A DNA stretch of 64,000 bases from Antitrichia curtipendula. Its lineage: Eukaryota > Streptophyta > Bryopsida > Hypnales > Leucodontaceae. Below, piece by piece: positions 14,793 through 48,814 of the stretch. The stretch is taken from contig OX579633.1 in NCBI GenBank assembly GCA_951230915.1, forward strand, positions 27,252,574-27,316,573, given 5' to 3'. Position 1 is the stretch's first letter. Each line of letters starts with the position of its first letter. Both the position numbers and the translations under genes were made by a program. The notes beneath the pieces were generated by a model, which was not told the origin of the DNA, did not search any database, and worked only from the letters and a program-made list of their open reading frames with translations.

Positions 14793-14820
14793 ATGCCATA
14801 TTTAACTACTTCTGGACTTT
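14793..14820 (+). repeat. Left terminal inverted repeat, copy 1
   Basis: 28 bp, starting ATGCCATATTTAACTACTTC and continuing into TGGACTTT. It is 27/28 identical to the right terminus read inward. Just inside, GGACTTTCAATAGTCC forms a small hairpin that is kept in copy 2 (GGACTTTTAATAGTCC). Confidence 0.88.
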
Positions 14821-15046
14821 CAATAGTCCAAAATTAAAGAGATGGTGAAATCCCTTGATCTACCTCAATTTCTGCACTCATAAGTCTTTTGGAGAGTGCT
14901 TCTTCGTGTGCTTGGAAATGCTAGAAAGTTTGTAAATTACTGTTCCGTAGTTGACTGTGCCAGAGTTCATGTGCCTGGATTGGGAGATTTGTGGACCGGG
15001 TTTCCATAATTTCAGCATCCCATTTACAGCTCACGTCCCCGAACCT

Positions 15047-16102
15047 ATCGAGAGATCCCACGATGACAACTAGTTCAAGCAAATACGGCTCCGAGCCCTA
15101 TATTAATACCTCACTCAACGTTCTGTTTGAAACGAATGCATCGTGAGATCCCCTGACAAGGTTGTCGAATATGCGGCAGCTTCATTGACAATTTTTGCGT
15201 CGAAGCGCTACAATTTGATTCATGTGCTGTAGACAGTGCAATTCATAGATACATTGATGGAGGAAAACTTGAAATTCACTGGAAGTCCCAAACATCACTT
15301 CAGAATGATCAAACAAGCACTTCCTCTCGGGAAGAAGGAGACCATTTTTATCTAAGCAGGAGATCCCCCGATGGAGTGCTAACACAAGAAACATTGTCAT
15401 TTCACACTACATCTAGTGGAATGACAGGACTGTAGACAAGTGAGTCACAAGTGCTCAGACATTCAGCATACATCTGTAGACTGATGAATATCAGCTAATG
15501 TACTATTCCATTTGAGATATTTCAATCTGTGTGGAGAAAATCGGGGTTCTATCACTACTGAAATACATCCAATCTCTGATGTCCACGTAATTGTGAACAT
15601 GCAGAACCCAGTCAACTGGAATTCCAACACGGACTGAAAGGGTAAAAAAATAAATGCGTATTCAGACTAATCTTTGTCCATGTATAATCCGAACACTGTA
15701 TTTGTCATTGATAAAAACATGAACCACTTCCATTTCAGCAGAGGAAAGAAAAACATCCCGCACTTCACATATCAGGTGACTGCCCGTGTTTCGTACGCAT
15801 AATGAATACCATAAACGAATTCATATATTCATAAAGATTTATGATGCTAATATATGTCACATAAAAACAACACTGAGAGGTTCATCGTCTAACAATCGAA
15901 CTCAAACAGGGTAGTGTACCTAAAAAACCTAACTTTCGACTAAGCTACCTCAATGTGGAAAGCCTCATGGGATCTCACGATGTCCGCAGCGACCTGAACA
16001 ATGCATCGTGAGATCACATGATGGCCGCGACAACCCCCGCAATGCATCGTGAGATATCACGATAGGCGCGCTACTCCACCGTATGTCGGGAGATCTCACG
16101 AT
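15047..16102. repeat. Palindrome cluster A (six sites), downstream of the minus gene
   Basis: Six 18-bp sites related to ATCGTGRGATCYCACGAT occur at 15,047-15,064; 15,140-15,157; 15,964-15,981; 16,005-16,022; 16,046-16,063 (ATCGTGAGATATCACGAT); and 16,085-16,102. The last four lie within 140 bp of each other, directly beyond the 3' end of the DUF7869-like gene, between it and the left terminal repeat. Confidence 0.85.
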
Positions 16103-16131
16103 GGATTACTGTTCTCAAACAAGGCGCTTGA

Positions 16132-19100
16132 TCATGGGTCCAACATGTTTGCCCGATTCAAATTTGCCAAGGCAGCCTCCCTACTCTTCTTAGGAATGGT
16201 CCTCGATTTTGGATCTACTATTTTCGACCAATTCGCATACGCCACAGCAACTGCGTCAACCCAGGTAGGGGCTGAATCTTCAACAACCCATTTACCGTAC
16301 CAGCAATTCCGGTACCTCAACTCTAGCGTACTTTCGGAGTTATCGGGTCGCCAATACTGAATCAAAAACTTCCCGTAATTTGCGTCTCCTTCCAGTTTGC
16401 ATACAGTAGACAATGCTCTTCCTTGCCAAACAGCATATGTTTCCGGGACTTCTGGCCTAAGAAGTACCCATGAGCCCGGTTGTATGTCCAGGTACGGATT
16501 GAATCTTTCTATTGGCGCTTCATTTGCGGGGCCGCAATAAGTTTCGGGTTCCTCTTCTTCCTCCGGGATCACATCCATGGGATTTCCTTGGCGAGGGACT
16601 CCATTCTGCGCTACCCTCCAATTATACTGTGGCCAGAAGCCTTCCACCAACTCCGGAGGACACTCAAGTAGTGGCTCCTTCAGCTCATCCAGTACACACT
16701 TCCAGTATTCCACGTAAGGGCCGAATGCAGCTGCAAATCCCTCGCATTTTGACATTCCTTGTTGCCAGTACTGAATGTACTTCTCGAGTCCCACCAAAAT
16801 GAAACCCTTGTTCACGGTAGCTTTCCGCGCCATTTCCCTTGCTTTCTCTTGATTTCCACCCGCGACGGGAACCTCGTTGCCCCACATGGGCTTAAATGGA
16901 ACAGACTTCGAACAACCGCGAGGGAGCATGGGGCGACCATTTTCATCTCTCCTCCAAATGCGTTGAGAAGGTTTATTAGACGGAAGCCACTTTGAATCAA
17001 TCGCTGACTCCTTGTAATTCATGACGGGGACCCCATCAGTGTCTACGTAGAACTTGAACAGGTGCATCTCCCCCAATCCAATTAATCTTTCGGAGCCACC
17101 GGTCTGGTAATCCTCCACGAACACCTTGAAATCCCCCACCTCCTGTATAAACTCCGGCAGAAATGACAATTCTTGGGACTGCATGAAGGCTTTCATGAGG
17201 TCAACAACGACGAAAGTGTTCTTGGTCTTAAGCGCCTTCGAAAGGTGGCTGAAATAGGCATCGATATCCTCGTGAGTATGTCCGACTAGTAGAAACTCGA
17301 CCTGAATTTCCTTGAAGACACCTCGTGCAGTGAGCAACGACAAAAACGCCATTAGGTATTTGTTCTTGTTATCCTTAGCAGAGTTGTCGAGTTGAAGATA
17401 TAACTTTTCAGGAAGGGGGTCCTACCGACCCGAGCTCCTGGTTCAGTGAGAGTCAGGCTGTCTATACATCTCGACTTTCCTTTGAGCAGTGCCTCAAACA
17501 TTGGATTCGCCGGAGGGTATGGAAAGAGGTCGCCTGCCTCTCGAATCGGTGGACCCTCCAGTCGGCGCAACAACCTCGCCAAAGACGAAATGGTGAAGTT
17601 GGAGTCTGCCGGCCAACACGATGGAGCATAATGGGTGTACGCACCGTCACCATGACCATGAGCTACCATTCTTGTGACGCTCATGGAAAGCTGCCCCAAA
17701 CCCGCCGTGGCCTTTGTCGTCACCCGCATTCTAGGGAGAGCCGTCTTCGCCGTATCCATCTTGTCGTGAATTATATATAAAATTCTCCGTGGATCTCGTT
17801 TGGATTCCTCACGTCAAGACGCATACAGACGACGGCAAGACGCTTGGTGATTCAGATGATGAGCCCTTTGATTCATGAACTCCACGTATTGGAGGCTTCC
17901 CTTTAGGGACTTCAGGATGTACTGCTGTAGATCGTCGCACAGGGTACATTTTGCGAACGAACTCCCAACAGGTTTAATGTGGACGTTGTTGAAGTGGTCC
18001 TTCTTAATTCTACTAATGGTCGACTGGCTAACGGGCGGCAGACCGTAGTCGACATTCAATTGGAAAAACAGAACGACTAAGCTTCAGAAATAGTACGAGC
18101 AAAAAGAGCCAGCAAACGAAAATGACAAACACTATTTCAGAGAAACGATCGTGACATCCCACGATCGTTGATCCAGTCGAGGGATCTCACGATCACTAAC
18201 TGCATTATTCAGAATCAATGGGTTTACCTTGTTAGCATCCGCTTGGACTCGTTTCCAGTTTCTGCCTACAGGCAGATATTTAAGAGTGTCCACTCGGCCA
18301 TTACCGATACTGCGCATTTGGTGGGGCATTTGATCAGCGTTCTCGTCAATAATGGCTTTCATAGTCCTTGTAACCTGAACAGTCCGAGTCCTCGGTCGCT
18401 TAATCCCTTTGTTTCCGTGCGTCCCCAAATTCACGCCGTCGTTGTACATCTCGATGTAAGTGTGGTAGGTCGACTTTGGGATTTCGTGAATTATGTACCA
18501 CGCCGTACCACAAACTTCCACTCCCTGTCGTGTGATGAATTTTTGCTTTCGATTCCTATTCATTTCATGGAGTTGCCCTGCCACTGCAATCCCATATTCG
18601 CGGCGGTCCTCGAACAACTTCAAGTAGTATTTCTGCCTAAGCAACAGCGTCAACTCCTGGTTAAAATGCTGACAACACAGATGTTTGCAGCACTTTTGCA
18701 AGCTCACTTTGCGGATCTCTTCGTCTGCCGTTTTCCGGTCTAACTGTGATTCCTTCAGCTTTATACTGAGTTTACGAACTACAAAGCGATATGGTGCTTT
18801 CATTCTACCTCCGAGATAAGCGAGAGGGTCGTCTGTATTTGGATTGGCGGTGAAATGATCCACGGTCTCCTTCAATGACCGACCGCTTGGAAACCAGCAC
18901 TCCGACAATGACCACCTCTCGTGCGACATTATGGCTTCTTCGTTACCCACAAAATCATCAAGGACTAATACACCCACGAAGCCCTCACCAAGTGTTTCAT
19001 CCTGGAAATGATCCTCTGCCCTCCAGCAAATGATACGGCCCGACGAAACGTGGAGTCCCCATCCGTCTTTCCGATGAACATCAAGTGCAAACCAGGCCCC

Positions 19101-19508
19101 CTGGCGAATATACAGACAGGGATCCATTGGGGGATCCCTCGACCCTCTTACAATGTCGGCGATTCTCCATAGCACAACACATCCCTAAACATCATACAAT
19201 GTTCTATAACTCCTGTGTTGGGGGTTAAATCTTAAGTTTTTGAACTCTAACTTTATGGAATGAGGCTGCACCAGCATATAAATCCAGGGCTCTATAGGTA
19301 GAGGCACACCCAGCCACTGGTTTTGAGGACGAACCTCCTTAACAATCCCGGATCCGACCTCACCGTATCCAGGAACAAACAGCTTAACCCAATCATCGAT
19401 CAAGAACGATGGAGATTCTTCGCTGGACTCCTGTGATCCACTTCCCACATGCTCACCGCGTACATATGGAACAATCGCATCAGCAGCGGACTCACTAAAT
19501 GAATCCAT
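16132..19508 (-). pseudogene. DUF7869-like protein, candidate transposase (copy 1)
   Basis: Two predicted exons: 19,508-18,228 (427 codons, donor AAG|GTAAAC) and about 18,059-16,132. Exon 1 carries an acidic start (MDSFSESAADAIV), a segment that may be a BAH/Tudor-like module (WVKLFVPGYGEVGSGIV to IICWRAEDHF), then a Cys/His cluster (CCKHLCCQHF) and VCGTAWYIIHEIPKSTYH. Exon 2 has FAKCTLCDDL, then IIHDKMD (~residue 525), LQLDNSAKDNKNKYL (~650) and GHTHEDIDAYFSHL (~685), which I recognise as DUF7869 hallmarks. The spaced D...D...E/D pattern on predicted strands suggests an RNase H-like transposase; that is inference. Damage: a TAG at 19,185-19,187 (CAG in copy 2), a TGA at 17,814-17,816 shared with copy 2, and a one-base frameshift near 17,405-17,420. 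The likely exon 2 acceptor reads CAA where copy 2 has CAG. A recently disabled copy is the simplest reading. Confidence 0.75.
18148..18193. repeat. Palindrome pair B in the intron of the minus gene
   Basis: Two sites, 18,148-18,165 (ATCGTGACATCCCACGAT) and 18,176-18,193 (GTCGAGGGATCTCACGAT), lie in the predicted 168-bp intron of the DUF7869-like gene. Copy 2 keeps one diverged site in the same intron (45,126-45,143). Confidence 0.85.
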
Positions 19509-21240
19509 TCTCGGTGATTTATGGCGAAGAGATCTCGAAGATTTGTTGAACCTACAAAAATCATGAACTATACCAGGAGTTAGTGTAGTTAAGAGATCGG
19601 CGTTCCCTTCGTAGCCAAGGAACCTGACGACAATTTCTTCAGTTTCGGCTGACTACTAAGGAAACACTTGCAGTACGATATACAAGATACCTAGTCAATC
19701 ATCAATAATAGTGTCAGGGAATCTAAGGATAGCAGATCTTGGCAAATGAATAGAGTACCCCGACAAGGTACACAAGAACATCTGATGTCCACAAGCGATC
19801 GTGAGATCACACGATGCCCGTGAAGGGAGCACTGAGCCAGTACGTACATTGAGGAGTAGGCCACTGGAACCAGACAGAAAGGTCCACACACCAAGGATCA
19901 ATGCGTCGTTGGAACCCACGACACACAAGTCATTGGGTCACCCTTTTCAGAGATCGTAGCATCCCACGATCCTCCTACCGAATTACGCTTGGAGGGAGTG
20001 AAATGCTAATAAATAAGTAAACGAACATAATCATGCAGGCAGATCCCAATCTCATATCTAATCGGTCATGTGATCCCACGACCAAAACATTCTAGGATCC
20101 ACGAAACAGAGATCCCGAGATCTGCTCATTAGAAAGAGAGACAACTGGATCCCTTGATCGTCGGGAACCGACGGAGACATAGTCCCGAGTTAACGAGACC
20201 CAGAACCAAATTTGGTGTAGTGAATCGTTGGATCCCACGAAACCAAGATCGTGAGATCCCACGATACTACGATCCTGTGATCCTCCGATTTCTGGGTCAC
20301 TGATTTCCTCCATTCAGAGATCAGCGGGAGTCACTAAACTTCAGAATCACTGATTGTGGGATTTCACGATCCTGTCTGATATGTACGCGTACTACTCTAC
20401 CGTATATCACCGTATCTAGACTTTGTCCTCAACATATGACGGCACCGTGGTTGTATTTACAGGCACATTAAGCTCTGTCTTCTGCCGTCTCCAAGTGAAC
20501 CTCCATGTCACTAGAGCGTGGTGATCGCTTCACTTTTGAGCTTCACTAGGTGAGTTTATCGTAAGTAAATCTATTGCTCAAAGCAACCACCCGCAGTCGG
20601 ACTCTTCTGCACTCTGAATCTACACGCGCTTGAAGAGTTTCACGAAATTGCAGTGGCATGCATTCAACTGATGAAACACTCAGGCTCGAAATTCCACTGT
20701 AGTTGATAGGAATGCATTGCTTACCTTGTGAATAATGGCCCGGTCAAAGCATCGTCCGCCTCCACTCCAATCTCGTCGCCTACATCGGTAGACACTGACT
20801 CCACTCCCCGCAGCGTGCTCCACTTGTTCACGTGTGCAAGCGAAAAGGAAAAGCTAAAGGTTCGTTTCGGGTTATAAAACACCTGCACTGGAATTCAAGA
20901 GCTGTGGATTCCCGCCGTGAGTTTTCAAATTTTCAAGCGTTCTTTTTTTTCAAATGTTGGTTGGATGCGTTCTAGATTGCCAAGCCGCAATCAAGACGTG
21001 AAGTACGTGCGGTTTTACACTTTGGAAGTGGAACGAACTCTCGAATTCCGTGCTGCTCCGACCACAAGGAGGGAGGGTGTGGGGCTCTTGACTTTGTGAG
21101 TGGAAATTCGCAGCTCCAGTGTTCCCTGCATTCCGGATCTTCACTGACATTCTGAAATTTGCCGCATTCAAGGATGGTATCGCTGCACGGTTTCAGAGGA
21201 GTCAATGATGCTTCGAGCAAAGAGGATTCGGTCTTCTAGA
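19509..21240 (-). promoter_or_regulatory. Upstream region of the minus gene
   Basis: Between the start of the DUF7869-like gene and the AT-rich core. It holds palindrome cluster C (19,798-20,370), then a motif-free stretch. The segment 20,920-21,230 is recognisably conserved in copy 2 at 48,300-48,600 (shared 'gttggatgcgtt', 'gtacgtgcgg', 'tttac' blocks). It probably contains the promoter and an untranslated first exon for the minus gene; a 'tttgtag' just before 'gttcaac' near 19,550 would serve as a 5'-UTR splice acceptor. Confidence 0.45.
19798..20370. repeat. Palindrome cluster C (eight sites) upstream of the minus gene
   Basis: Sites at 19,798-19,815; 19,953-19,970; 20,065-20,082; 20,141-20,158; 20,224-20,241; 20,248-20,265 (ATCGTGAGATCCCACGAT); 20,272-20,289; and 20,353-20,370. 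Three sites at 20,224-20,289 are spaced exactly 24 bp start to start, an arrangement suited to side-by-side protein binding. Confidence 0.85.
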
Positions 21241-22184
21241 CTTTCATTTCTCCGGATTTCACACGCGTCCAGGTCAATACTTGGACGAGTAACTCTGTGT
21301 CCCTCCACCTCAAGGCGATCTAATGACCTGAATACCAACATAACGGTTCCAGAATTGCTGTGCCCTGGTCTGTTCTGTGCCTAATGTGCTCTGCAGACAG
21401 GGGACTTTTTCGGTTCAATCTGCTAGTCGGGGAGTCAAGGAGCGAGGGTTTGTTTTCCTTAGCCCCAGACCGCCTGCGGTTTTAGGGTGTGTACTAGTGA
21501 TCTTAGAACTGCTTTACTAAATTTAGTGAAACATGTTACCTAGGTTATTAGGATTTAGTGCAATATGCTACTTCCTCAAGACAAATGGGACTCAATTTTG
21601 GCTACCTTGAGGGTGAGTAGTATTAGAAAAAATAAAGAAGATAGGATTTTGCAAGTTTTAAAAAATCATTGGGAGTACTATAATACAAAACAACCAAAAT
21701 AGCTGCTAATTTCAATATAGAGGAAGTTGCACATTGCCTACCAAATTCTATTGTTTGTTGCAATCTTGACTAAAATCTAATTTTTTCAAGGATTTTTTCG
21801 AATACACTTTTAGCTCCTGAAGTTTTTTAGTAGCAATGGAGCAAAATTTAGCCATTTCTATGATCATTAGTTTGTACTGGAACCCCTAAATGGCCAAGGC
21901 ACCAATTAGGTTTAGGTGGTTTCCGAAGAAGTGTTGAGGTGGCAACTTACAAGAAAATGCTCTAGCCAAATATTTTAGTATTCAACTAAATTTTATATGG
22001 AGTTATGTTTTCATCCACATTTTTCGATGAGTGTCGTTTATACATGACATTTTCATTCAAAATTTTAAAAAAATTAGAGCAATTTGGCATTGTCATCTAA
22101 ATTTTCTTCAAATTTCTTCATACACTAGTAGGCTCGATGCAACCCATTTGTTTTTGAGGGATGGAGCTACACAAGGCCAAAAAA

Positions 22185-22258
22185 TAGGGTTTACGGATTA
22201 GGATTTTTAGGATTTTAGGGTTTAGGGTTTTAAGGGTTTAGGATTTAGGATGTAGGGT
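22185..22258 (+). repeat. Short interstitial telomere-like tract
   Basis: Degenerate copies of the plant telomere unit TTTAGGG (gggtttagggttttaaggg and neighbours) over ~70 bp. Too short and mixed to be a telomere end; more likely a random or repair-derived tract. Confidence 0.5.
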
Positions 22259-23432
22259 GCAAGGCCCCCGTAGGTGGTGTCTAAGAAACTTTTTTTGGAA
22301 AACTTTCTTAAGATGCAAATGAATTTCACTGAAAGTAAAACCGTACCAAATTCCTATTTTTAGTAGAAAATATTATTGGAAGATTTTTTTTTAAGTCTAA
22401 CCGTAAATCCAAAAACCAATTTTGGGGCATGAATGATTATGATTTTCCTATTCAAAATTTGTGCAAAGGGTTCCATTGCAATCTTGACTTCTTGTATTGT
22501 TCAGAGGTCTTGGAAATTTGCCTCAAATACTCTAGATTTTAATGAAAAAATCATTGACACTAGGAATTCTTTATAAAAATTGGTAGTGTAGATTTTGAGA
22601 TGTCATAAAATGATTGGGCTTATATATTTGATTAGGCCCTTCAACCTCATATTTTGGAGGTCTTGAATGTTTTAGATTTGACATGCAGAAGGAGAATGAT
22701 TGAACTCAAAGGTTTTCATAGTTTTAACACACTGATGATCAAACATTACAATCTTTCAATTGATACAAATTATGATGTTGTTGTGTTTCCTTTTCCTATG
22801 TGATATTTAACATGTGTAGTTTGAATTTGTATAGTTACAATACCCCAAAATTTGATTCAACTTATCAAAAGGTTGGCCTCTAGTTCAATATAGAATAAAT
22901 TCAAAGAGGCAAAAAACAGGCCTTCGGTATTTAGAGGTTAACGTTTCCAATGAAATTCTAGAGCATTGGAATCCAAAACAAAAACAAATTCTCCAAAAAA
23001 AGAGGTATTGAACCCCTCATTTTTTATTAAATGAAGGATTAATTTTCACCTGAATCCCCTCATTTGCAAAAAGAATTCACAATAATTTCAGGTTCATAGG
23101 TGTTTATACTTGATATTTTATATTTGAATGACTGAAGTCTTAAGGTCTAGGTTCCACGGTTATAAGGGCGATTGTCCGCGGTTTAAGGACGCAAAGTACA
23201 CACTTGTACGGTTGAAGTTTAACATGTGAAGAGTCATGATTTTTGGGTTTAGGGTTTAGCATTCAGGAGGGCATTGTTCATGACTAATAATGCTCAGGCT
23301 TAGGATTAATTCATTTCAGGATCATGGTGATTGGTTTGAACTGAAGGTGTATACTTCATGGTTTAGGGTGGTCAATTCTAGAGTCTTCGATTTTAGATGG
23401 ATGATTTTCGGATTACCGGTTCCAAAACATTG

Positions 23433-24340
23433 TTCCATTTCTTAGTTACGTGGTCCATTTTGGGAAAAAGTTGCATGGATTGTTTCCGCTCATGAATCTT
23501 AACTTCATGAGCGGAGTATTTATAACTTCAATTTACATTTTTTTTTTTCATCCCAACGTGTACTATTTTGAATAGGACTTATGGAATGAGGTTTCTTTGA
23601 ACCGCAGGACGAGAGTCCCATTTCTTAGTTGCATGGTCCATTTTGGGAAAAAATTGCATGGATTGTTTCCGCTCATGAATCTTAACTTCATGAGCGGAGT
23701 ATTTACAACTTCAATCTACATTTTTTTTTTTCATCCCAACGTGTACTATTTTGAATAGGACTTATGGAATGAGGTTTCTTTGAACCGCAAGACGCCGGGA
23801 GTAACATTATATTCATTAGTTTGGGAGATTGAGGACCTCCCAAAATAATCATGCTGATCTCGACTTAAATCAACAACTCACATTTAAAATGAGAGTTTTG
23901 ATATAAATTGACATAAAACCTTTCAATATTAGGTCAAATCTTGAAAGATTTTCTATCCGTTTAACTCGAATCGAGTTAAATTGATATAAAACCTTTCAAT
24001 ATTAGGTCAAATCTGAAAGGTTTTCTATCAATTTAACTCAAATCGACTTAAATTGACATAAAATCTTTCAATATTAGGTCAAATCTGAAAGGTTTTCTAT
24101 CAATTTAACTCGAATCGACTTAAATTGACAAGAAAACCTTTCAATTTTAGTTGAATTGATATAATACTTTTCGTTGAGTTTTTTTTAAATAACCTCTCAT
24201 TTCAATGGAAAACTCCCATTTTAATGAATATGGTGTTGAGTCCCATTTTTAAGTTACGTGATCCATTTTGGGAAAAGGTGCATGGATTATTTCTGCTCAT
24301 GAATCTTAACTTCATGAGCGGAGTATTACAACTTCGACCT
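23433..24340 (+). repeat. 182-bp tandem repeat with internal hairpin, split by a MITE
   Basis: Two nearly identical units (about 23,433-23,614 and 23,615-23,798) run from 'cccatttcttagtt' to 'tttgaaccgca'. A third partial unit continues after the MITE at 24,238-24,340. Each unit contains the hairpin CCGCTCATGAA / TTCATGAGCGG with a 7-base loop. Confidence 0.8.
23803..24237. mobile_element. AACACCATATT-type MITE, copy 1 (435 bp)
   Basis: Ends read AACATTATATTCATTA (left) and AACACCATATTCATTA (right, read inward). The flanks show a 4-bp duplication GAGT (23,799-23,802 and 24,238-24,241). It has inserted into the 182-bp tandem repeat, which continues after it. Internal short repeats such as 'taaattgacataaaacctttcaat' recur three or four times, probably expanded by slippage. 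The related element at 62,372-62,658 shares both ends and 'atcatgctgatctcgac'. Confidence 0.75.
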
Positions 24341-25330
24341 TTTTCTTAAAAACTTAAGTTAATTATCTATACAATTTGAAGACAGTGTTTTTGTCTAATT
24401 TGAGTCAGATTTTTAGAAGTTCAATATTGCCTTCCAATTTGGTGTTTCAGTGAAAATCCTCCGCTGTCCCTCTGCCAATCCAATTTGAATGCAAGCGCTT
24501 TACTTTGCTAAAGCCTCAGAATTGGAAGCCACCGGAAATTTATCATTGATTTAGGATGCAACTGAAGTTAGGCCACAATATATCCAGAAAATGCAGGACC
24601 TAAATCCGGTAGCGAGAAAAATGAATTTGATCATGAAATTGGGGTCTTCACGCTTTGCTACTCATATTTCTAATTAATAGCAATAAATATATTGAGGAAG
24701 GTGACTGTCTCAAATTTTTTTGGCTTCCAACATAATGAAAGTATCTTGCAATTTCAGTTATCTAATAATTTGCACTCCGTTCTCATAGTCGCTCGCAGAG
24801 TTATAGTATTAAAACAAGGTCAACTTGCGGTGCTTAAAAAAAAATTCAATTTTGGGGCATAAAAAATGTTTGTTTGAAAGGTTCTATGATGGGAATAAGG
24901 ACTTTGGACTTCATGTTTTCTTGGATCTAATATCGCTAAACCCTCTTATATTCTTATATTTTTAGTATCACCCTATGATTGAAGGTTTTATATATGATTT
25001 GAATCATTTCTCAAATTTTATTAGAATCGATTTCTATAAGAAAACACTTTATTTTTTCATTTGAGAGTTTGTTTAATTTTTGGGGCATTTAGACTTTCAT
25101 ATTTGAAGCCTATAACTTACTAATAGAGGAGTTCAAGACATGCAAGTAACTATAACTATGAGTATAAATGGAAAAGAGAGTAATTTAATTCTCATATATG
25201 GTAAGTTCATGGTAACTTCATTTTCACTTATGGTATCCCATTTTCAATGATGATAACTTCATTTTCACTTATGGTAAGTTAATATTCACTTATGACTTTG
25301 TTTAGGGTCATGAGTGACCCGAAACCGTAG

Positions 25331-26473
25331 ATTTCTCAGTAATGATGAAGAGGGCTGACAGTGATTTCCTCCGCCGCCTCTCCCCTGATAGCGCCACGTC
25401 GATAGAAGGAGCTGGGTTTCCCTTCCCCAGTGCACACGATATCGAGTGCTCTCCTCCTTCACCCAATGTTGTATGCAGCTGGAGAGTTCCCTTTCGTATT
25501 CCCTGCAGAGCTTGTGTTCCGCTGTGGAGTGTGCGTGAACTTGACCGATTCATGAGTGTTTGACACCGCGATTTCAATTGTGCTTGACGCCGCGAGTTGG
25601 ATTGTGTTTGACGCCGCGAGTGTCCAAGAGTTGTTGGCGGAGCGTTGAAGGCGGTTGCGTGTGGGGCGTCGTCATTTACGGAGGGAAGGGAGGCGATCAA
25701 ATTCCGTTTCCAGTCTGTGGGTGGGAGTTGTCGTTGGTGCCTGGTGGAGACGAGCGCGTGAGATTCCTCGTTTTGGCGACCCACCATTTGCTGGTGGAGA
25801 CGGGCGTGCAAGGTGGTGGAAGTTGGCGGCCAAGCATTTGCCGAAGGAGACATTTCGTGAGCTACGCACCGGATTTGTTGTGGCGAAAGTGTGCGCGAAC
25901 TTGACTCCAGAAGTGAGTTTCCTGCACATTCTTCCGCTAACGTTCATTGTTTGAGTTTTTTATTTCCATTTGCACAGATTGGCTTCATTTCTAGAGGGAG
26001 AGAACTACCGATTCAAGTGCGCGGCGTTAGACAGTCTTCATAATTATACTCGAGCTCCTAATTATCCTTTCCACTTTCCAGCTCGCATCCCTTCCCGACT
26101 GAAATCCCCCATTTACATTATTATTTTGAATGTTCTCAGTTCTCGAATGATGCATATAGTAAGACAGTCATGACATTGTTTGTTTTGAAATCGATACTAG
26201 GCATGTTCTGCATTAATTTCCTAGTATCGTGACTTTTCGGTTTCAATTGGCCTGATGTGTCGTCGTTCAAGGTTGCAATTTCTAGTTTTGTGTTGAATGT
26301 GATCAGGCTTGAATGGCAGTAAGATAGTCCAATGCATCTGGGAAATATTGTTTTGCTGTCGAAACTAGTCGTCACATTCTGTTGTACTGATTGGATCGTA
26401 TGACTTTTTTTTGGCATCCGTCGATTTTTGTACAGTTGTATTGCATTCCGGACTCGGGCAAGCTGCCGGTACG
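25331..26473 (+). promoter_or_regulatory. GC-rich 5' region of the plus gene
   Basis: After the AT-rich core the sequence turns GC- and CpG-rich (25,340-25,930) and then mixed up to the predicted start codon at 26,474. This is the expected place for the promoter and untranslated leader of the plus-strand gene. GC-rich open frames here on both strands do not resemble known proteins. Copy 2 has a similarly GC-rich stretch at 53.67-54.35 kb before its plus gene. Confidence 0.4.
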
Positions 26474-26746
26474 ATGGCAGGGACTTCAGCTCTGCGTACA
26501 GGAGGTCAAGTAGATTGGAATGCCCCGTAAGTTTCTAAATGCAACCCTCATTTCCTTTTCGTGAGGAATGCAAGAAATAAAGAGAGTGCAGAGTACCCGA
26601 AAAGTGCATTCTTTTAGGGTACTCTGCACTCTCTTTATTCTTTGTTACAAACCCTGTCGAGAGTTACGGTAGTGCAAATCAGTAGAACAATACACGGTAA
26701 TAAGTATTCCACCTTATTACCGTGCTTTGAACCCCTAAATCCGTGC

Positions 26747-27425
26747 ATCGTGGGATCCCACGATTTGCCATTTCTTAGTCAGTTGGCATTGAAAATCATC
26801 GTGAGATATCACGATAGGTTACAATTTCAAGATATTAGAGGACTGTCCATCGTGGGATCCCCCGATTAAGGCTCATGGAAGAGCCTAATTATGTCCCGAG
26901 GACCGTTCTCACTAGAGTAGAACACGCCACATCGTGGGATCCCCCGATGAAATGTCGTAGAGACTCCAAGGAAATGCAAACGAAACCTCAAGTGCAAATG
27001 AGGAAGGAACAAAATCCAACATCGTGGGACATCACGATGCATCATTGTGTGCCGCCTCATCGAACACAGACAAATAAGTGAATAGGCCTCAAAGATTACT
27101 CATCGTGGGATCTCATGATCGATGTAGACAATACCCTGTGAAAATCATTAATAGAAGGCGGTCGTGAACTATCCCAAAAGCATGATCAACATACTTCAGA
27201 GGTCATCGTGATTTCCTACGATGTCTATGCCATCGTGATATCCTACGATCTAGAAGCTCTCGTGATAGCCCTACACTCCACCGTCTAGTTAGTTAGGCGA
27301 TATCCCGTTCTATTTTGTCCCAAAACAAGGAGTAGGCGTCATAACGACTGCTAAGTAGAATGAATCACAGATGTCTTACGTCTCAAGGAAATGTCATAAA
27401 ATCAACAATCGTGATATCCTACGAT
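26747..27425. repeat. Palindrome cluster D (nine sites) in intron 1 of the plus gene
   Basis: Nine sites in the 993-bp first intron: 26,747-26,764 (perfect ATCGTGGGATCCCACGAT); 26,798-26,815; 26,849-26,866; 26,931-26,948; 27,021-27,038; 27,102-27,119; 27,205-27,222; 27,232-27,249; 27,408-27,425. Mean spacing is about 80 bp. This is the densest and best-preserved cluster in the window. Later sites shift towards ATCGTGATATCCTACGAT. Confidence 0.9.
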
Positions 27426-28901
27426 CGTGCTTGTAATACAAGCATATAGAGAGAATTAGAATTGCAAGACTATTGATTTTCCATCTCCCTCACTAACATC
27501 ACTGTCTATAATGCTGCAGAGAACATCAATTCGATGACGGTCCGGAAGAGTGTTCACCGAGGAAGCTTAGTCACTTTGTCGACTCCTGGATCCGCGACTT
27601 CACGTACAAGGGTCCACATAAACCTGGAGCTATATTCCGATGCGACCAAAGCGTTACAAAATGGGGCCTGGTCTGGAAGGTTGAGAGTGACGGATTAGCT
27701 TTGATTCTTCCCTCTATCCTAAACAACAGCAAGGAACATGGAACAGGCGGTCTCAAGGTCGCGGAAGTGCAAGGACTTGACAACAAAACAGCTCTTCTTG
27801 TCATAGAAGAGAAGGTACCCCTATCCACTGAGTCCATTACCTATGGCTTCATCCTGGACTACGAGACGATGAACATGGGACTCTGTGAGACTATGACAGC
27901 CAAGGCGCATTTGATGTGCAAGGACCCCGCAAAGCCTTCTTGGAAGCCTCAAGAAATGAAGAACCAATGGGATATCATTCAGGAAGATTTGGCTGAATTG
28001 AGTGCTGCCTCCAAGGCAGTCGAAGAGGATGCTCCCACGCCGTCACCGGCCAAAAAGACCAAGAAGAGGAAGTCAGTGGTTGGAGCTCCAGGCGATGACG
28101 ATGATGTTGGACAGGGTTCAGCCGGAAAGAGGAAGAAAGCTGAGACCCCGCTTTTGCTGCACGAGGCTGTCGCTCTAGGGGAAGCAGAGATCAAGAAGAT
28201 GCGACCGGAGCAAATGATGGCGATGAAGACATTGTACGAGAAATCCTTCAGTGGCTTCTACAAATGGGGAAGAAAAGCCCTTTGTGACAAAAATGGGGAG
28301 CTGATCCGCGTCAATATGAAGTGCCTGCATGAGGCATCGAAAGCACTGCTTGTATATAGGGCCATCGATCCTGAACAGCTGGACAGAATCACGAGGAAGG
28401 CACGTATCACGCCAGATTATAACTCAGAGAGCAGAGTGATTATAGTCCTCCCACTTAAAGTTGGCCCATATGGCCCAAATGGCGTAGTGATGCACTATGA
28501 AAAGACACCACCGAAACCAGAAATCTTTGAAGACCTGAAGACGCAATACTTCATTATTGGGGGACAACACACTGTCAAGGCCTTCAAGAACCTGATTGAT
28601 GCTAAGGAAATTCCCGAGGCCGACAAAAAGCTCGCGTCTACGTTCTACATCATTCTAGTCTGGACACCCAAGGTCAACCACGGAGACCTACTGCACTTCT
28701 CGCGGGCACTGAACCAGAATCTCGCTGGTGAACAGAAGGAGATGAATTTCACCAAGCAGCTCTTGTACGCAAGAACAAAATGGCGCAGTATGGGAAGTCC
28801 GCAGCCCGCCATAATGGAGAGAACTCACACGCAAGAATATAATGTAAGATTCCAATTCATATTTATGTTGACTCTGCATCTCAATGGAACACTTAGCAGT
28901 C

Positions 28902-31900
28902 ATCGTGGGATCCCATGATCGACTTGTACTTACAGACATAAGCAGACGACATTGTAATGAAATCACTATGGGTTCCACCATTGCTCCGGCAAAGCATTCT
29001 CAAATCCTTTGTGGACATAACTAAGGTCTAAATGATTTGGTTTCTGGCTTCATTTCTAGGAATTGTATTGTGGATTCCTGTTCTTGACTTTTCGGATCAA
29101 CTATCGGAATATCAATCGTGTGATCCCACGATGTCCATGTTTGTGTTCTACTTCCATTTCCTTCGCAATGCCATCATTGTAATATCCTCTGATGGTTTTC
29201 TAGTCTATCCCACACAATTGACGCTATGCCAATTTGTTTTACTGTAACTATTGATGATCGTGGGATCTCACGACTTCGTATCCCATTCATGGTGTAAACT
29301 TGATCATTGGGTACTCACTTTGACTCTGTTGTGCAGGCATTTCATCTGTGTTTGGTGACAATCTTTGCGGGTGTCAAGACTGTTGATATGTCGGAACTGC
29401 GAATACCCCTGCTCTTCCTGGAGGATGACGCCGACGTAAAGATGTGGATCGACATTGAGGAGAAATTTATGAAAGGATATCTTCCTGATGGAACGGGCCT
29501 GGTTGATGTATGCGGGAAGCAGAACCGAAAACCCTTAATGCAGAATGACTTCAAGACGCTCTAAGGACTTTGATCGGAGGACATAAACTACCTTGCGAAT
29601 CAAGTGGAAGCCAACTGCGTCTGTGTAAAGAGTTCGAGGATGACAAGTCAGAAGAGTGGCCGACAGAATTTCAAAATCATCCCTCTCAATACCGCTGGTG
29701 CAAGATTGAGGCTAGTGAGGGCCATGAAGAACGAGCTCTTGGCACACTATACGAATCAACTGCTGCCCATGAGGAAGATGGAGTATGTACCATATCCGGA
29801 ATCCATATGGGAGGACTTCGCGACCGAGAAGGACATCGGACGCGACGAATTAGGTTTGTGGGTGAACAAGGCCATGGAAGTCTCTGCTGGGAAGAAGTGG
29901 CTGGAAGGCAGGACAAAGGGATTGAATAAGACGTTCGACCCAAAGGACCTCCCCGAATTCGTCATTAATATGTGGGAGTCGTTCTTCAAGTCCGTTGTGG
30001 AGGATGAAGTGACACAAGCGCATGTACAGGATTTCTCGAAGCACTATCTGTGCAAAATGATGGACGAGAGAACTTGGGATATCAGCAAAACTTTGTCGGC
30101 CCCAGACGTCAAGGCATGGCGGGGAAAGAAGAAGCGTCACCTTTACATGTGGTTCATGGTTGAGGAAGCACCCTATGGATCCCGTACGAAGATGCTGGAG
30201 TTTGGAAAACTGAACAAACTCTTCAATGCTCTGGAGTTCTACGACCCAAAGGACAAGACTGTCTCACCGCAGGCTGGCGCCGTCCTCATCACAGATGCCG
30301 AGGGATTCCACACTATTGCGGGTTATCTCGAGAAAAGAGATGAGGAGATGAGAGCAAGGTTGTGGGACTGGCACATTGTGACTTACATGGCTGGGCCGGA
30401 CGACTTCTTCCCTATGTCACCGGCCGGGGAGGGGTTCAACGTGTTTCTCGTCTTCATCTTCGAGCACATCCCTCACGGAACCAAGCACGATTCCTTCAAA
30501 GCCTACTTCCCTGGATTAATTGATCTGAAGCAGACTTACAGATCGCAAGACATGAAGGATGTCCACCCGTATTGGCGACGACAGCATGTGCCTTGCCTGA
30601 AGATCAAGACAACGGAGGAGATATTTAAAGGACTCGCATGCACCGACCTTGTCCTCGTGAATGTCAACGGCGGTCCCGAGTTCACCTACTTGGGACTGGT
30701 AAGGTCTTGGGCTCCACAATCTTCCTTTCATTTCGAGCAACGCAATGTTTTGGTCTTGCCAGTTTCAGGCACACTAACAACTGATTGGTGTATTTCAGAA
30801 TTTAGGAGGTGTTCAAGTGCTGGAGGTAGTGCATTCCGCTGAAGCTGTGACGGCAAGTGAGGTCGTCGCCAAACAGATTTGGGACGACAAGGAAGCACCC
30901 GCGGCAACTCCTCCAGTTCTAGAAGGCACCGGCGAGGCCGAGGATCAACCAGACATGGAGGCTGATAATGACGAAATCAACCCATCCGATCCTCTAGATT
31001 CCCATGACGAGCATGAGGACAATATAGTGAATGAGGTCATCGACGAATCCCAGCAATGTATAGGAACAAGGTCGGTTGATCACAACGAGGTTAGTGTGTG
31101 TTAATTGCTGAACCATCGTGAGATCCCCTGATCTTGGGAAGCTCACATTAGTGATTTCTGGTGTTTGATTGGGATTCTAAATGTCCAAGTGATTTGTTTT
31201 TGGATTCGACGCAGGAGGAAGATGCGCTTGCAATAACTCCAGTAGGACGGTCAGAGGACGTAAACGTTAGTGACCCCAATGTTTAGTCGCCTCCAACGGG
31301 TCCAAACAATGTAGTCGAATAATAGGAGCATCATTCTGAACTGCCAGCACCAGGTCGGCTGGGAGATGTAGTCAAGCAGCCACAGAAAGCTCCTCAGCCG
31401 GAAGGAGCTGGACAACAAGTGCATTTTCTATCCGACAGTTCAACAAGCGATGAGGTTACAGGCCCTCCGCTAGAGAACCCGAGGACATCCAGAAGGAAGA
31501 CTGGAAGTAATCAAGCCAAGTATCTTGGCTGTAGAAGAAATACTGCTGGGAAGAAGGCTACGAAGCGACGACGGCAAGGTAGTGCAGCCGCAGTGCAAAT
31601 GCGGAAGGTGGTCAGTCCCAAAGCGAATCCGAACAGGGACGTCGCCGAGGGGGAACAAGATCCGCAGATGTCAACTGGGATTGTGAATCCCGAAGCATCA
31701 CACGCGGCAGGCATACTTCTGACATGTGCTTGCCCACCGTCAACTCTGGAGATTGTCGATTTAGGCGTTCCCGACGAGGAGGTGCCGCAGACAGCTAGTG
31801 GTGATGGAGTTATCACGAATTTGCCCGATGGGACAGAACCTGCTTGAGGGATGAATCAGACGGAGGTCAGAAGAATTCCAGGTCCATCAGGGGATCCCAC

Positions 31901-32242
31901 GATGAACACAAGGACTGTGTTGGACATAATGAAGGGTCTGGAAAACTCAGATGAAAGCACCGGCGGCCAATCAACTGAAGGGTGCCCAGAGCTTACTCTT
32001 GGTGGAGACCTCACGGGGATTGATGCCAGCAGACTTGATTTGGAGGTTCCCGCGACAGATGCCCCTGCACTAGGCTCTGAAAACCGTAATAAGGGGATTA
32101 GGGCGGGCACAGAGGCATCGTGGGATCCCCTGATTGTTCAGGAAACGGAGGTCGTCATGGCGCACGTTGATCAGGCAGCAAGCAAGGATATTGACGGACA
32201 TCTGGTAGGGTTAGCAACTTCTACATCAGGGGATATCACGAC
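28902..32242. repeat. Palindromes in introns 2 and 4 and in predicted exon 5
   Basis: Intron 2 holds 28,902-28,919; 29,115-29,132 (ATCGTGTGATCCCACGAT) and 29,257-29,274. Intron 4 holds 31,115-31,132. Predicted exon 5 holds 31,886-31,903 (ATCAGGGGATCCCACGAT), 32,117-32,134 and 32,225-32,242. The exon 5 sites are read as SGDP, SWDP and SGDI, so the motif is tolerated in disordered coding sequence. Confidence 0.85.
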
Positions 32243-33700
32243 GGTCGCTTCGCGAGGTCTCCTGCTCACGGGAATTACGGTGGACGAACATGAGGACACC
32301 CTCGTTGACTTGGTACCCATGAGTCCGAGATTCAGAGGGAGGGTGGCTGTGGATATTGCTTCTGTTGCCTCCACTGTTGCACTGGAGGTGTCAAGTGAAG
32401 TGGCTCCTGGAAACGGTGAGGGAATTAACGAAGAAGTGCTGGAGGCCTTACCATATGAGGCCGTAGACATAATGAAATTGTGCGTTGTGGATGGGGTCAA
32501 ATCACTTGCTGAATCTCTGAGTAATGATTTAATTGTGTTCGGAATCATCGACCCTTCGGATCCTATTGCACTTCAAAAGAAGAAACAGCATACGCAAGCC
32601 GTAAGGCGAGCGCACCGATTTCTGTACAAACCCTTGTTTAACTGGGCATTTCAGAATGGGCCGCATGCAGGACTGGAAGGAGGGGATCCAATGGATCAAC
32701 TATTCTACGAGGAAGGCGATGAGGAAGAGCAAGAGAGCGACGACGACATGGAAAAAGGGAAGGGGTCAATTACTGGCAACGATAGGGGGGAAGAGGAAAA
32801 TCGCGGCGACGAGAGGGGGAAAGGGCCAATGATTCAGGACGAGATAGGAAATCGGCAACGGGACGGTGATGAGGGCAAGAAAGCACTTCAGGGTGTCGAC
32901 AAGAGCAAAGAAGGGTCTCCCCGAAAATACCTCCGACCCCGGATTCCAAGTAAGAAGCTAACCATTTTTTATAATGCTTATACTTGAGAACGGATTCTTA
33001 AATGGACTCTAACGCGCTGTTTGTCGGATTTTCAGTAGGTTGTCGAGTCACCAAAGTCTCTCGGGAAGAGGTGCGGAAGCCGTTGAATAAGATAGAACCG
33101 CGGCCGTATTTTGTGACCTTTGACCTGAATGGAGTTCTAGTTCACAAGACTTTCGATAATCGTAATAGACGTCGCTATGCTGTGCAACCGAGTTGCCCAC
33201 ACTTCCTGGACTGGGTGCATAGGACTGTTAAGCTCGCATTCTGGAGTAGTATGACAAAACAGAATGCGACATTCGCTTTGAACCAGATGCTGTCCGGGGC
33301 GGTTGTGAAGCCGAAGGATGTGCTTGTTCTCACGCAGGAGGACTGCACACTCTCGTCTTACAGAGACCGTCGTTGTCCGGATAGGCCTTACTTTCTAAAG
33401 GATTTGTCACACTTCGCCCGTAAGCTGAATTTGCGGACACAAGAAAATATTCTATTCTTCGGTGACGACCCATTAAAGAACCTCCAGAACGACTATTATA
33501 GCGCCATCTTCCCCACAACTTGGGATGGTGACATGAGAGATGATTACTTAATGGGGAAGTTGTTTCCTTATCTCAACCAACTTTTCAAGTCACATGAAGC
33601 TGTCCCAGCGTATGTTAGAGCCCACCTGCTTCTTCATGGTCAGCATCCGGAGATCCTGTTGACCAGACCGGGGTGTGACATATTGAAGGGTGTAACTTAG

Positions 33701-36239
33701 ATGTGGTTATTCTTTTGCGTGGGACTGGATCCGGAGATATCACGATCTCATTCTATCATACTTCATTACTTACTGTTTAATACTCTTGAACTCACTGTGA
33801 GTTTTGTAAATGCATTTTTCAAATACTTGACTTTCCCATTTCTTAAGAGTCATTTTAAACTTTACTCATTTTGTAAGGCACATTGTAAATATTATTGTAT
33901 GATTATATGTGAAATCCATTTGTGAGTTAGAGTTATGATTTCAATTGGATAATTTTGACCTCCATAATTAACGTCGTGCGTGAATATACTAAGATGTGTT
34001 TGTATAGTATGCAAGTTCATTTCCTGTCGTGAGATCTCACGATGGACTGTAGGGGCGATTTTAACTGACATGTATTGTCGTACTCATTGTGCACAGCGTC
34101 AGTCTCTCTTCTTCTTTTGTTAAATCGCATATCATGTTGCTGGGGATAATGAAATTGTATTTAACTCTGAAGTATTTTATTTCTGTTTCTCCAAAACAAC
34201 CGATGGATCATTGCATTTAGAATGGTAAGCAAGATTGAAGCCATGACATATGGCATTAAGAAATTAAAGCAAAGTAAAGAGATAAATGAAGAGAATAGAG
34301 CAAAGAGAAACATGAAGACTAAGTGAAGGAGCAAAGTGGGGGACCTACACTCCAGCAATCTCCATCACGTCTGAAGACGATGGTAAGGTCCCATCATGTC
34401 TCGCGAAGATGGGGGAATGCTAGGAAGCGGTATCTTCAATAGATTTTATTAGTGTGGGCCTCATAATGTTCAGCTACTTAGTTCAATCAGGAGATCGCAC
34501 GATCTTCCCTCTTGCCGTCCAAGGAATTTAATGGATCACCATGTACATGTCCGATAGTACAAACAGTTGTGCGTCTTTCGTCCCCGTAATGTCCTCCATT
34601 TTGGTTTATGTAATAGGGGATGATAGTTGTAGTTGTGCTTCTGCAATTTGTTGGGCGTGTTCCTCCTATTGTCAGCAAGACTTCACCCTAAAACCGCTGA
34701 AGTCTTGATTTGAATTTGTTTACATAATCTTGTCTCTATGGCTTGATCGGGATATCTCATGGTCGTGTGACTTTGCCTCTAATGGATACTCTGAACTTTG
34801 TAATTCTCTCGCTGCAATGTAATGCAGATCCTTCTTTTCTTTTGTATTAATTTTTGGATCTCATATTATTTATGCCTAATTCCACTTTCTGTATTTAAAA
34901 AAATCATTTATCTGCATGCCTCACTAGTCTTGCATTTTTGGACTGCAGTCACATTCTACACGAAATATTAACTTTCCTAAGCTCATCTGCAAATGAGATT
35001 TTCACTTGATGTTCTCTTTTCTAATCTGCCAGTTCTATTCGATACGCGGTTCTGTAGTAATGCATATTGATCGTGATATCTCACGATCATTCGACGTCCT
35101 CTTCTGTCTTTACATCATTTATGTGTGCTGAGATGTACTTGGTCTTTGCAGAAGGCGATGCTCCTTGTACTGACTGGGGATCTCTGCGTTAAGGGCGGTG
35201 TGGAGGATCTTCCACAGAATATACAAATACGGGCTGGCTTCCACGATCTTCTGTGATATCTTGTTGAAGAAACTCACTGTGGCTTGTGGGCGGCAGTGCA
35301 ACCTTCGACATTAGCTGTTCTCCTTCGACGTATTCTACCGCTGGAGATTCTTTCAAGGTTCCTTTTCTTTTCTGGATCCGACAATCTATACAAGAACCAA
35401 CTGTATCCGCGGCGTCATGCACTACTGAGGACTCTTTCAAGTAATCCTCGGACGCGCAGGGTACTCTTGAATGACATTGTCGTAATGTTTGTTCTCGATC
35501 CTCTGAATTTGGGCACGTCTGCATTTACTTCAACCGGCGTTGCATGTGAGGGATGATGTAGATACTTCAAATTGGCAATGTGCACACGTTATAGGACCGC
35601 GCTTTGATTGGTCATGGGCCCAGAAATAAGCATAGGTTCACATGGAACTAGTGGCACTTATTTGATTGGCACCCATTCGATTTGAATGGCATGTATTTGT
35701 TGCATCCAAATGATTATAAAGTCATTTTTGCTCGTTATCACTTGGGTTGTGCAGAGTCATCGCTTTGGCTGTTTTGTATTGTATTTTCAAGTAGTGGGTT
35801 CGCCCTATTCGTTTCACCAAAAAGTAAAAGATGATTATGAATTGGTGAATCCACCTTCTGTATTTCACTATTATTACAACTTATCAAATGTCCGTAACTG
35901 CATGATTGTTTTGCCTCATCACATCTTTCTTCTTGGGTAATGCTCTGCGAAATATGTCGTGACATCTCCCGATTTGTAATGTCGCATATTTAAAGCCAAC
36001 CCTAAATATGAAGCCACTCCTTACAGTAAATATGGGAGTTGACATCATCCAAAATGCATCAATTTGTTCCTACACTTTAAATCCAAAAGGGATACAATTC
36101 CACTGCATCAACAATCTCCCGATGACTCCACATCCTAAGGTAGTGTAAGCCTCCATCAAAAGGCATTGCAGCCTCAGTTTACATAAGATCAGGATATCCT
36201 ACGATGCCCTAAACCTTCTCGAAGTCCAGAATTCCTGCT
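33701..36239 (+). other. 3' flank of the plus gene, with palindrome cluster E
   Basis: No supported gene up to the right terminal repeat. Palindrome sites lie at 33,730-33,746 (partial), 34,026-34,043 (GTCGTGAGATCTCACGAT), 34,486-34,503, 34,746-34,763, 35,070-35,087 (ATCGTGATATCTCACGAT), 35,956-35,973 and 36,188-36,205. The last is only 35 bp from the right terminal repeat. Short frames at 35.2-35.5 kb overlap on both strands and are not convincing. Confidence 0.6.
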
Positions 36240-36267
36240 AAAGTCCAGAAGTAGTTAAATGTGGCAT
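36240..36267 (-). repeat. Right terminal inverted repeat, copy 1
   Basis: Read inward it is ATGCCACATTTAACTACTTC plus TGGACTTT, differing from the left end at one base. The CCAT duplication follows at 36,268-36,271. A second GGACTT copy lies just inside (36,230s), where the left end has its small hairpin. Confidence 0.88.
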
Positions 36268-42114: not shown

Positions 42115-42142
42115 ATGCCCTATTTAACTACTCTCGGACTTT
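42115..42142 (+). repeat. Left terminal repeat, copy 2
   Basis: Starts ATGCCCTATTTAACTACTCT and runs into CGGACTTT, followed by the conserved small hairpin GGACTTTTAATAGTCC. Confidence 0.8.
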
Positions 42143-42395
42143 TAATAGTCCAGAATTAAAAAAGGGACAAATTCCCCGAGGATTTTTGTTGGCTGTCCAT
42201 AGATCCCTAGGTATTAGCATTTGGCATGCATCAAAGTTGCATCGGTGAGTATTGTCACTTACAAATGATATAGGCCACTAATACAAAGGTATAGTGACCC
42301 CAAAAATTCACTGGAAAAATCAGAAGTGTCAAATATGAGGACAAAATCACGAAATGAGCGATTGCTTTTAGGAATAAGTGCTGGTGCCAAATCCA

Positions 42396-42981
42396 ATCAT
42401 GAGATCACCCGACTAATAGTTGCCTTCAGGCCAGTTGTGCCAGGCTAAAGAGTGCTGAACTGGAGTCACATTGCCTCTTGTAATTTTGAAGAACATCAAC
42501 TGAAGGTGCTTTCATGGCTAATGTATATCTGTTCATGCTTGCCCTCCCTACAGTGACAATGTAGACCCTGAAAGCCCACAATTCCATAAATGACTGACAA
42601 TTGAAAGAGAAGGAGTACACATACTTATAATCCAAACACTGAATTTTGTATTACATCCAATGAAATATGAACCACATCCATTTTAGTAGATCAGAAAACT
42701 TCAGCTATGACTTCATGGACCCTATACTGCACGTAAAGAATAAAACAACAAAAAACAAGTTCATCGTATGTCATCAAGATTTCTTATGCAGTTATATATC
42801 ACAAATGACACTCAGGTGGTAAAAGACTATTCTCTAACAGTTATACTAAAACAAGAAAGTGTACCTTAAAACCTAACTGGTAACAACGCTCACAGGAAGG
42901 AGAACTTGTCGGGAGACCCCACGACGGCCCGCTTGGTGACAGTGCTCATTGGAGGGAGAACTCATCGGAGGACCCCATGAC
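42396..42981. repeat. Diverged palindromes, left flank of copy 2
   Basis: Three diverged sites at 42,396-42,413 (ATCATGAGATCACCCGAC), 42,908-42,925 (GTCGGGAGACCCCACGAC) and 42,964-42,981, in the same position relative to the minus gene as cluster A in copy 1. Confidence 0.65.
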
Positions 42982-43081
42982 GTCTCGCTTAGTGACAACG
43001 CGACACTGAATGTACATTGAGTCGGATAGTCCCGCCCTAAACCCGCATGATGCATTGGTCCAACTTGGACAAGGTACGAAA

Positions 43082-46479: not shown

Positions 46480-47081
46480 TATCAGTCTCTAGTTTCTTTT
46501 CGACTGTCGAAGTCGAGAATGATCCAGAATATGTGTAACCCGAAATTCAAAATATACACGGAACCTGCAGATAGCGGAAACGAAATTTGGAGTGAGATGG
46601 ATAGTGAAAATAGAAGCCACATTACATCATAGCATAAGAACATCACGTCTTTATTCACACACCTAATATGAAGCAATGCCCCTTGTGCTAAAACTCAAAT
46701 TCCAATCATTTCAAAATGCAGAATCGTCTAGAGCGACATCTGAATTAGGAAACAGAGATCATGTAGTTCTTCGATTGTAAATCCGCACTACAGTAAAACT
46801 CCTCGAGCATGGGATCCTCAAAAGTAGGTAATGACAACTGGAAATGTAACGAAAAATCGAGCTTAGGATCCGAAACACAGCTATAGCGGGGAATACAAAT
46901 CTTGAAACTTGAACTCAAAGCTCGGGAGGTCCGAAAATAAAGAATATCTTCAAGTTGCTGATTTAGAGATGATAGGGCTACAGAAGATATACTTGAATCC
47001 TCCAAGAAGATGACCGCGATACTTATAAAAAAGTGGACTCCGGAATAGCGAACCATCGATTGCAAGATCCCAGATAACACA

Positions 47082-48600: not shown

Positions 48601-48814
48601 AATCAAGGAATAGTCAAATAGTCTAACGTTTTGTAGCTAGGATCACTTGTATTCAAGATTGGAATGAGATTTACTATAATATTTCACAAACCCAAAGAAA
48701 ACATACATTCACTCTTATACCCATTTGTATAATTTGGTTGCCAATCTTTTAAATAATGCTTTGGACGCATGAAATGCCGTCTCAGTCCTGCCTAGTGTTC
48801 TAGGGGAGAGTTCC

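Follow-up and report, generated by a model that had tools for sequence, protein, structure and literature searches.

The passages available on VANDAL21 describe VANC21 as a protein that binds the motif YAGTATTAY in the non-coding parts of this transposon, and indicate that VANDAL targets evolve via tandem repeats and that conservation is higher for the transposase than for VANC (PMC5735166, PMC10398659). In the open-licence PMC literature, VANC/VANDAL is the sole system of sequence-specific transposon anti-silencing with proven action that we found; fungal transposons with a TET/JBP enzyme were also among the titles listed in the anti-silencing literature search. Excerpts on Sola1-1_Ec32, a 21.5 kb transposon of Ectocarpus, describe an opposite-strand gene for a product of 1104 amino acids (aa) with ParB-like and N4/N6 methyltransferase domains, and mention ParB-containing transposons also for green and red algae (PMC12477816). 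KorB on RK2 is presented, in the part of the paper available, as a ParB-fold protein acting from distant operators (PMC11790492). Here we describe a 64,000-nucleotide (nt) stretch of the genome of the moss Antitrichia curtipendula (hereafter the window; contig OX579633.1, positions 27,252,574 to 27,316,573), which contains a DNA transposon of about 21.5 kb with terminal inverted repeats (TIRs), named element A (14793..36267). This element carries a gene with a DUF7869 domain, a ParB-like gene, and dozens of copies of an 18-bp palindrome that is almost certainly a site for an element-specific protein.

In a count over the whole window with up to three mismatches allowed, the 18-mer ATCGTGRGATCYCACGAT has 38 matches (33 at 15047-35973 and 5 at 47445-56355), while 100 shuffles gave 0.11 matches on average and one at most. 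Exact copies are two only, at 20248 and 26747. With up to four mismatches, element A contains 42 non-overlapping sites, the majority of them imperfect palindromes, which is close to the approximately 39 dispersed variants of the original prediction. The 18-bp dyads have no loop, and the information content of the A sites is restricted to 18 columns, within which pairwise identity is 0.745, as compared with 0.26 and 0.25 in the 25-bp flanks. Because identity drops at the 18-bp edges, the A sites were not spread inside longer repeats; dispersal as parts of such repeats is ruled out by the unrelated site flanks, and a chance origin by the shuffles, by the reversed control in the genome and by the sharp site boundaries. 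By these features the A palindromes look like protein-binding sites.

Eight of the sites lie in the left part and the 3' flank of the DUF7869 gene (14842..16102; starts at 14842, 15047, 15140, 15355, 15964, 16005, 16046, and 16085), two at an intron/exon edge of this gene (18148..18193), a weak one, with four mismatches, in its coding sequence (19126), and eight in a cluster in its 5' flank (19798..20370). The 5' flank of the ParB-like gene holds a cluster of nine (26747..27425), intron 1 of this gene three (28902, 29115, and 29257), and the right part of the element 11 (31115..36205; starts at 31115, 31886, 32117, 32225, 33729, 34026, 34486, 34746, 35070, 35956, and 36188). None of the 42 falls into the AT-rich core of tandem and inverted repeats (20400..26700). 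Both the occurrence in gene flanks and introns and the empty core had been noted before. Exons conserved with element C, a diverged relative of A in the same window, contain two of the 42 sites (18176 and 19126) versus 12.0 expected, in a count that omits the open reading frames (ORFs) at 31326-32987 and 33002-33700, of which the coding status is not established; three sites (31886, 32117, and 32225) lie inside ORF 31848-32987. The generic dyad pattern ATCNNGRGNNCYCNNGAT, with up to two mismatches, has no match in 1-14792, 44 in 14793-36267, none in 36268-42114 and 21 in 42115-64000. The earlier claim that host segments are free of the motif is therefore correct for the segments on both sides of A and incorrect from 42115 on, where the second element had been taken for host DNA. 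The first site (14842) is 49 bp from the left end. Since the TIRs place the ends of the element at 14793 and 36267, the last site (36188-36205) stops 34 bp short of the inner TIR edge and 62 bp short of the right end itself, and not 35 bp from the end as stated earlier.

In the genome (400 Mb, 303 contigs), the exact 18-mer occurs at 202 places of the forward strand, compared to none for its reversed control. Of the 50 exact places listed, which are on C1-C3 and include two from the window, 37 have a listed copy of the DUF7869 gene or the ParB-like gene no more than 15 kb away, versus 1.2% of random points; at least 98 scored matches of DUF7869 (from 1470 candidates) and at least 91 of the ParB-like gene (from 595 candidates) are present in the genome. 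Two isolated exact hits inspected among the remaining 13 both represent a 241-bp miniature inverted-repeat transposable element (MITE) of a young family (L069:400-640 and L070:150-390, 99% identical to each other), which retains the two termini and a single perfect palindrome; the latter starts roughly 50 bp from the left end, close to where A has its first site. As far as examined, the palindromes are confined to elements.

A search free of presets, for the most repeated 18-mer in each of 25 stretches representing about 14 related families, yielded dyads of one shared design for 24 stretches (17 of 18 in the first set and 7 of 7 in the second). The 17 successful stretches of the first set contain 7-15 copies, as compared with 2-4 in controls, which were two plain shuffles of each of the first 18 stretches only. 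The length of the dyad is constant at 18 across families. The half-site is ATCGTG in A, B, and L045, ATC[G/A]TG in L043, AT[T/C]GTG in L066, ACCGTG in L060/L064, ATCTGG in L046, ATC[T/C]GG in L061, ATCTGG with a different centre in L059/L062, A[T/A]CGGG in L048-L057 and L063, and A[G/T]CGGG in L044. As several families have one version in common, the versions mark groups more than single families. Tandem arrays, of up to about 20 sites, are present only in some families (54-bp in L045, 72-75-bp in L060/L064, and a paired array in L059), and duplication of longer repeats does explain the sites in these. Exon 1 of the ParB-like gene contains none of 251 sites at 24 loci versus 77.4 expected (the loci include near-copies, so that the 251 sites are not independent events), and sites are found upstream of exon 1 at all 24 loci. 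GATC was considered as a target base and rejected, as the central GATC of A is absent in some families. As a separate, post hoc observation in which a few families dominate, the C at half-site position 3 is nearly always in a CG/CHG context: of 308 half-sites examined in 14 families, 283 have this C, and G or HG comes next in 264 of these.

The product of exon 1 of the ParB-like gene comprises an N-terminal beta-rich domain followed by a ParB/Srx-type domain (about 28217-28770). In a fold search, the best structural matches of the model of the latter are bacterial ParB/Noc proteins, and the protein is accordingly predicted to have the ParB N-domain fold, in agreement with the earlier assignment. 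Searches of PDB sequences, for which exon 1 as well as alignments A1 and A2 served as queries, revealed no related protein, the two rows obtained (E 0.026 and 1.5) being unrelated. A phage search gave no match, a PHROGs search gave one match of E 0.0044, of which the function is not known, and another of E 0.27, and Foldseek with the full exon 1 model, the later part of which is unreliable, gave no useful match. DUF1985 had no Pfam match in the proteins scanned. At the junction of exons 2 and 3 (29338-31100), the sequence VLVNVNGGPEFTYLGL-NLGGVQVLEV resembles by eye a degenerate motif I of N4/N6 DNA methyltransferases; no methyltransferase match to Pfam was found in the three proteins scanned at E up to 10, and the motif [DNS]PP[YWF] is absent from all three forward frames over 27500-36267 and 56400-62000.

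Because the 18-bp dyads are sharply bounded, mostly non-coding, group-specific, confined to elements as far as examined, and retained in MITEs, we read them as protein sites. The original prediction of a binding site for an element-encoded protein thus stands, by inference from the shape of the dyad, its versions, its confinement, and the MITEs, as far as the site is concerned. The ParB-like protein is likely to be this binder, and anti-silencing would be its leading purpose, although both operator control and mobilisation compete seriously with it. The joint reading, in which the sites are bound by the element's own ParB-like protein mainly for anti-silencing, has in our estimation a little less than an even chance. 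A dimer of the protein would bind the palindrome as a dispersed parS- or operator-like site, and with sites in promoters, introns, and subterminal DNA it would recognise and mark the entire element, possibly by spreading along it. The marked DNA would then most likely be kept accessible and expressed despite host silencing, much as VANC does for VANDAL elements, with full copies and MITEs both served in cis. A broader proposal is that this transposon superfamily domesticated the bacterial-type ParB/parS logic of loading, spreading, shielding, and kin-specific sites; divergence at half-site positions 2 and 4-5 and at the centre would let each protein serve only its own kin and their MITEs. We put this proposal forward tentatively and consider it rather improbable.

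Several results weigh against the joint reading of binding and anti-silencing by the ParB-like protein. In a CpG-decay test on 29 copies of A (the thirtieth, L032, was dropped because it has no left end and the least in common with the others), the share of intact CpG is 88.2% in motifs (456 cells), 87.8% in other non-coding DNA (1407 cells), and 87.6% in coding DNA (4509 cells), with non-CpG divergence of 2.1%, 2.5%, and 1.8%, respectively. The equal decay at motifs means that there is no strong, lasting CpG protection on resident copies; brief anti-silencing by active copies would still be compatible with this result. With respect to the protein, the confidence of the domain model is modest (predicted local distance difference test score, pLDDT, 65), no ParB profile match was found in Pfam and NCBIfam, and no helix-turn-helix was located after the N-domain, in a part where the model is unreliable. 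The ParB nucleotide box is of the GERR type; in an alignment by eye its position reads GGQHT (GGMHT in one row), which makes a CTP (cytidine triphosphate) clamp doubtful. In its 5' exons, the DUF7869 gene has diverged to the same extent as the ParB-like gene (62% and 44% aa identity, A vs. C). The palindrome of the MITEs counts as one event only, because they form one young family.

The evidence that site and protein changed together is likewise qualified. In a tree built from 16 of the 24 loci, the class of the half-site, defined after the motifs had been seen, changes four times as compared with a shuffled mean of 7.9 (1 of 200 shuffles as low). The GGG class taken singly was equalled in 1 of 500 shuffles, and the signal is weaker for GTG (26 of 500) and TGG (52 of 500). 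Agreement between the motif and the ParB-like tree is partly expected from common descent, because the two sit on one element. A leave-one-out comparison covered 14 of the 24 loci; of its 154 sites, 99 best fit the matrix of their own family (11 expected by chance), but only 5 of 12 A sites and 4 of 10 B sites do so. A, B, L043, L045, and L066 have nearly one half-site in common, and despite this near-equality the match in exon 1 between A and each of B, L043, and L045 is only 44-53%.

The position of the two densest clusters, in the 5' flanks of both genes, together with the upstream sites at every ParB-like locus, would also suit a protein that regulates the two promoters of the element and read-through without any role in silencing. 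KorB, a ParB-fold repressor for which the accessible text describes distal action by sliding (PMC11790492), provides the model. Sites are, however, also held by introns, 3' flanks, and subterminal DNA, and pure promoter control is disfavoured because the 241-bp MITE, which has no genes, keeps a perfect palindrome; we regard this explanation as unlikely. The same MITEs, in which the TIRs are retained together with the palindrome, and the degraded sites of A at 49 bp from its left and 62 bp from its right end bring to mind an accessory site of the transposition complex that acts in cis near the ends, the internal copies being decoys or assembly points. This sits poorly with the majority of the 42 sites, which are far inside the element and clustered at promoters and introns, and the single MITE family again amounts to one event. 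Mobilisation is likewise unlikely, and somewhat less probable than operator control.

It may also be asked whether the ParB-like protein is the binder at all, as the sites flank the DUF7869 gene too, DNA binding by the ParB-like protein is only inferred, and fast divergence is also seen in the DUF7869 5' exons. The DUF7869 protein or a host factor would then bind the sites, and the ParB-like protein would be unrelated to them. One host factor is unlikely because the versions are group-specific on a constant 18-bp design, and the DUF7869 domain, which changes less between A, B, and C than the ParB-like protein does, is disfavoured as the binder; we assign this possibility a low probability. The least probable of these explanations is that the protein is a counterpart of the algal ParB-methyltransferase proteins and modifies, or once modified, the element DNA at the sites. 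It draws on the ParB-like/methyltransferase gene on the opposite strand of the 21.5 kb Sola1-1_Ec32, as described in excerpts (PMC12477816), and on the resemblance by eye of the exon 2-3 junction to motif I. It is countered by the lack of a methyltransferase match and of [DNS]PP[YWF] in the searches given above and by the central GATC of A, which is not retained in every family.

The boundaries of element A are well defined. The left TIR (28 bp, 14793..14820, + strand) is 96% complementary to the right one with which it pairs (36240..36267, - strand), CCAT is present on both sides as a 4-bp target site duplication (TSD), and of 30 copies, whose flanks are unrelated, 28 have a sharp left boundary. 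All four copies readable at both ends have 4-bp TSDs (CCAT in the window copy, CCTT in a C10 copy, and ATAG and AAAT in the two MITEs). The DUF7869 gene (16132..19652, - strand) matches PF25273 (E 3.8e-36, 124.9 bits, cut-off 26), is conserved with element C, and probably encodes the transposase. In the window copy, its reading frames point to a probable frame break near 17421-17445, a region that other copies, L013 for example, read through for 650 aa with no inner stop. The ParB-like gene, on the + strand, consists of exon 1 (27512..28841, 443 aa, with the donor GTAAGA at 28842), intron 1 (28842..29337), exon 2 (29338..30698), and exon 3 (30799..31100), which encodes an acidic tail and has splice sites assigned by eye and an approximate end. 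As exon 2 contains in-frame stops at 29562 and 29571, in addition to the probable frame break of the DUF7869 gene, the window copy of A is decayed.

Further to the right, an ORF similar to NIF/CTD phosphatases (33002..33700, + strand; PF03031, E 7.1e-10) is found at the same place in C10, the single other copy compared (95.6% nt identity over 800 bp), and has no match in element C; it may represent a host gene that was captured. Two open frames, one of 173 and one of 379 aa, occupy 31326-32987, with three palindrome sites in the second, for which no Pfam match was found. The tandem and inverted repeats of the core are located at 23432-24327, and a part of them (23803-23932) is 82% like 62372-62500. 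Between the two elements lies an inverted repeat (38346-38561) with arms of 68 nt that are 99% complementary, perhaps a small foldback element.

Element C extends over 42115..60500, its right end being approximate and not found within the window. Its left terminus is 87% identical to that of A over 46 bp, its DUF7869 gene 73% identical at the nt level, and its ParB-like exon 1 45% identical at the aa level. By exon, the identity of the DUF7869 gene products is 71% and 75% aa in the domain part and 62% and 44% in the 5' exons. The palindromes of C represent a variant version with the half-site GTC[C/T][G/T]G, derived from seven sites only. In the right part of C, the search without presets returned an unrelated AT-rich word (8 copies vs. 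3-4 in shuffles).

Of the systems compared, VANDAL/VANC offers the parallel drawn by the original prediction, and this parallel is close. According to the accessible passages, a second protein is encoded by the element in both cases and short motifs are concentrated in intronic, intergenic, and terminal non-coding DNA (PMC5735166), and the targets frequently form tandem repeats that vary from one related family to the next, which holds here for some families only. The second gene also diverges faster here than the DUF7869 domain: aa identities of the domain and of the ParB-like protein are 71% and 45% between A and C, and about 80% and 50% between A and B. In contrast to the 9-bp YAGTATTAY of VANC21, the motif is here an 18-bp dyad; VANC carries DUF1985 according to the same passages, whereas a ParB-like fold is predicted here, and the probable transposase is of the DUF7869 type. 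Binding and hypomethylation are described there as proven, while they are a proposal for the present system.

Sola1-1_Ec32 is the closest published relative that we found. As far as its excerpted description goes, the likeness includes a size of about 21.5 kb, a ParB-like gene opposite to the transposase strand, and a product of about 1000 aa. Sola1 makes 4-bp TSDs, as do the elements described here, and the two are likened by size, gene layout, and TSD alone. Sola1-1_Ec32 differs in having a recognisable DNA methyltransferase domain, none being found here, and the passages on that element contain no cognate site (PMC12477816). KorB resembles our case, in the text available, as a ParB-fold protein of a mobile element with palindromic sites near and far from promoters; it differs in belonging to a bacterial plasmid and in having a proven CTP clamp and another palindrome, whereas the nucleotide box is altered here. 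With ParB-parS the moss elements share the predicted ParB N-domain fold and a palindromic site; they differ in the lack of a segregation context and of a ParB profile match, and in the dozens of sites across a eukaryotic transposon. Since Sola1-1_Ec32 carries a ParB-methyltransferase gene, ParB in eukaryotic transposons is already known, and the new part is the dispersed, diversifying cognate site. No report of such a site for a transposon ParB-like protein was found in open-licence PMC papers, and the literature search found no papers on DUF7869. If the proposed function is true, a second system with an unrelated fold would mean that self-marking evolves repeatedly. Families whose versions of the palindrome can be read are numerous within this one genome and constitute a natural series for a protein-DNA code, and the dispersed sites make the proposed role of the proteins of ParB-containing transposons testable.

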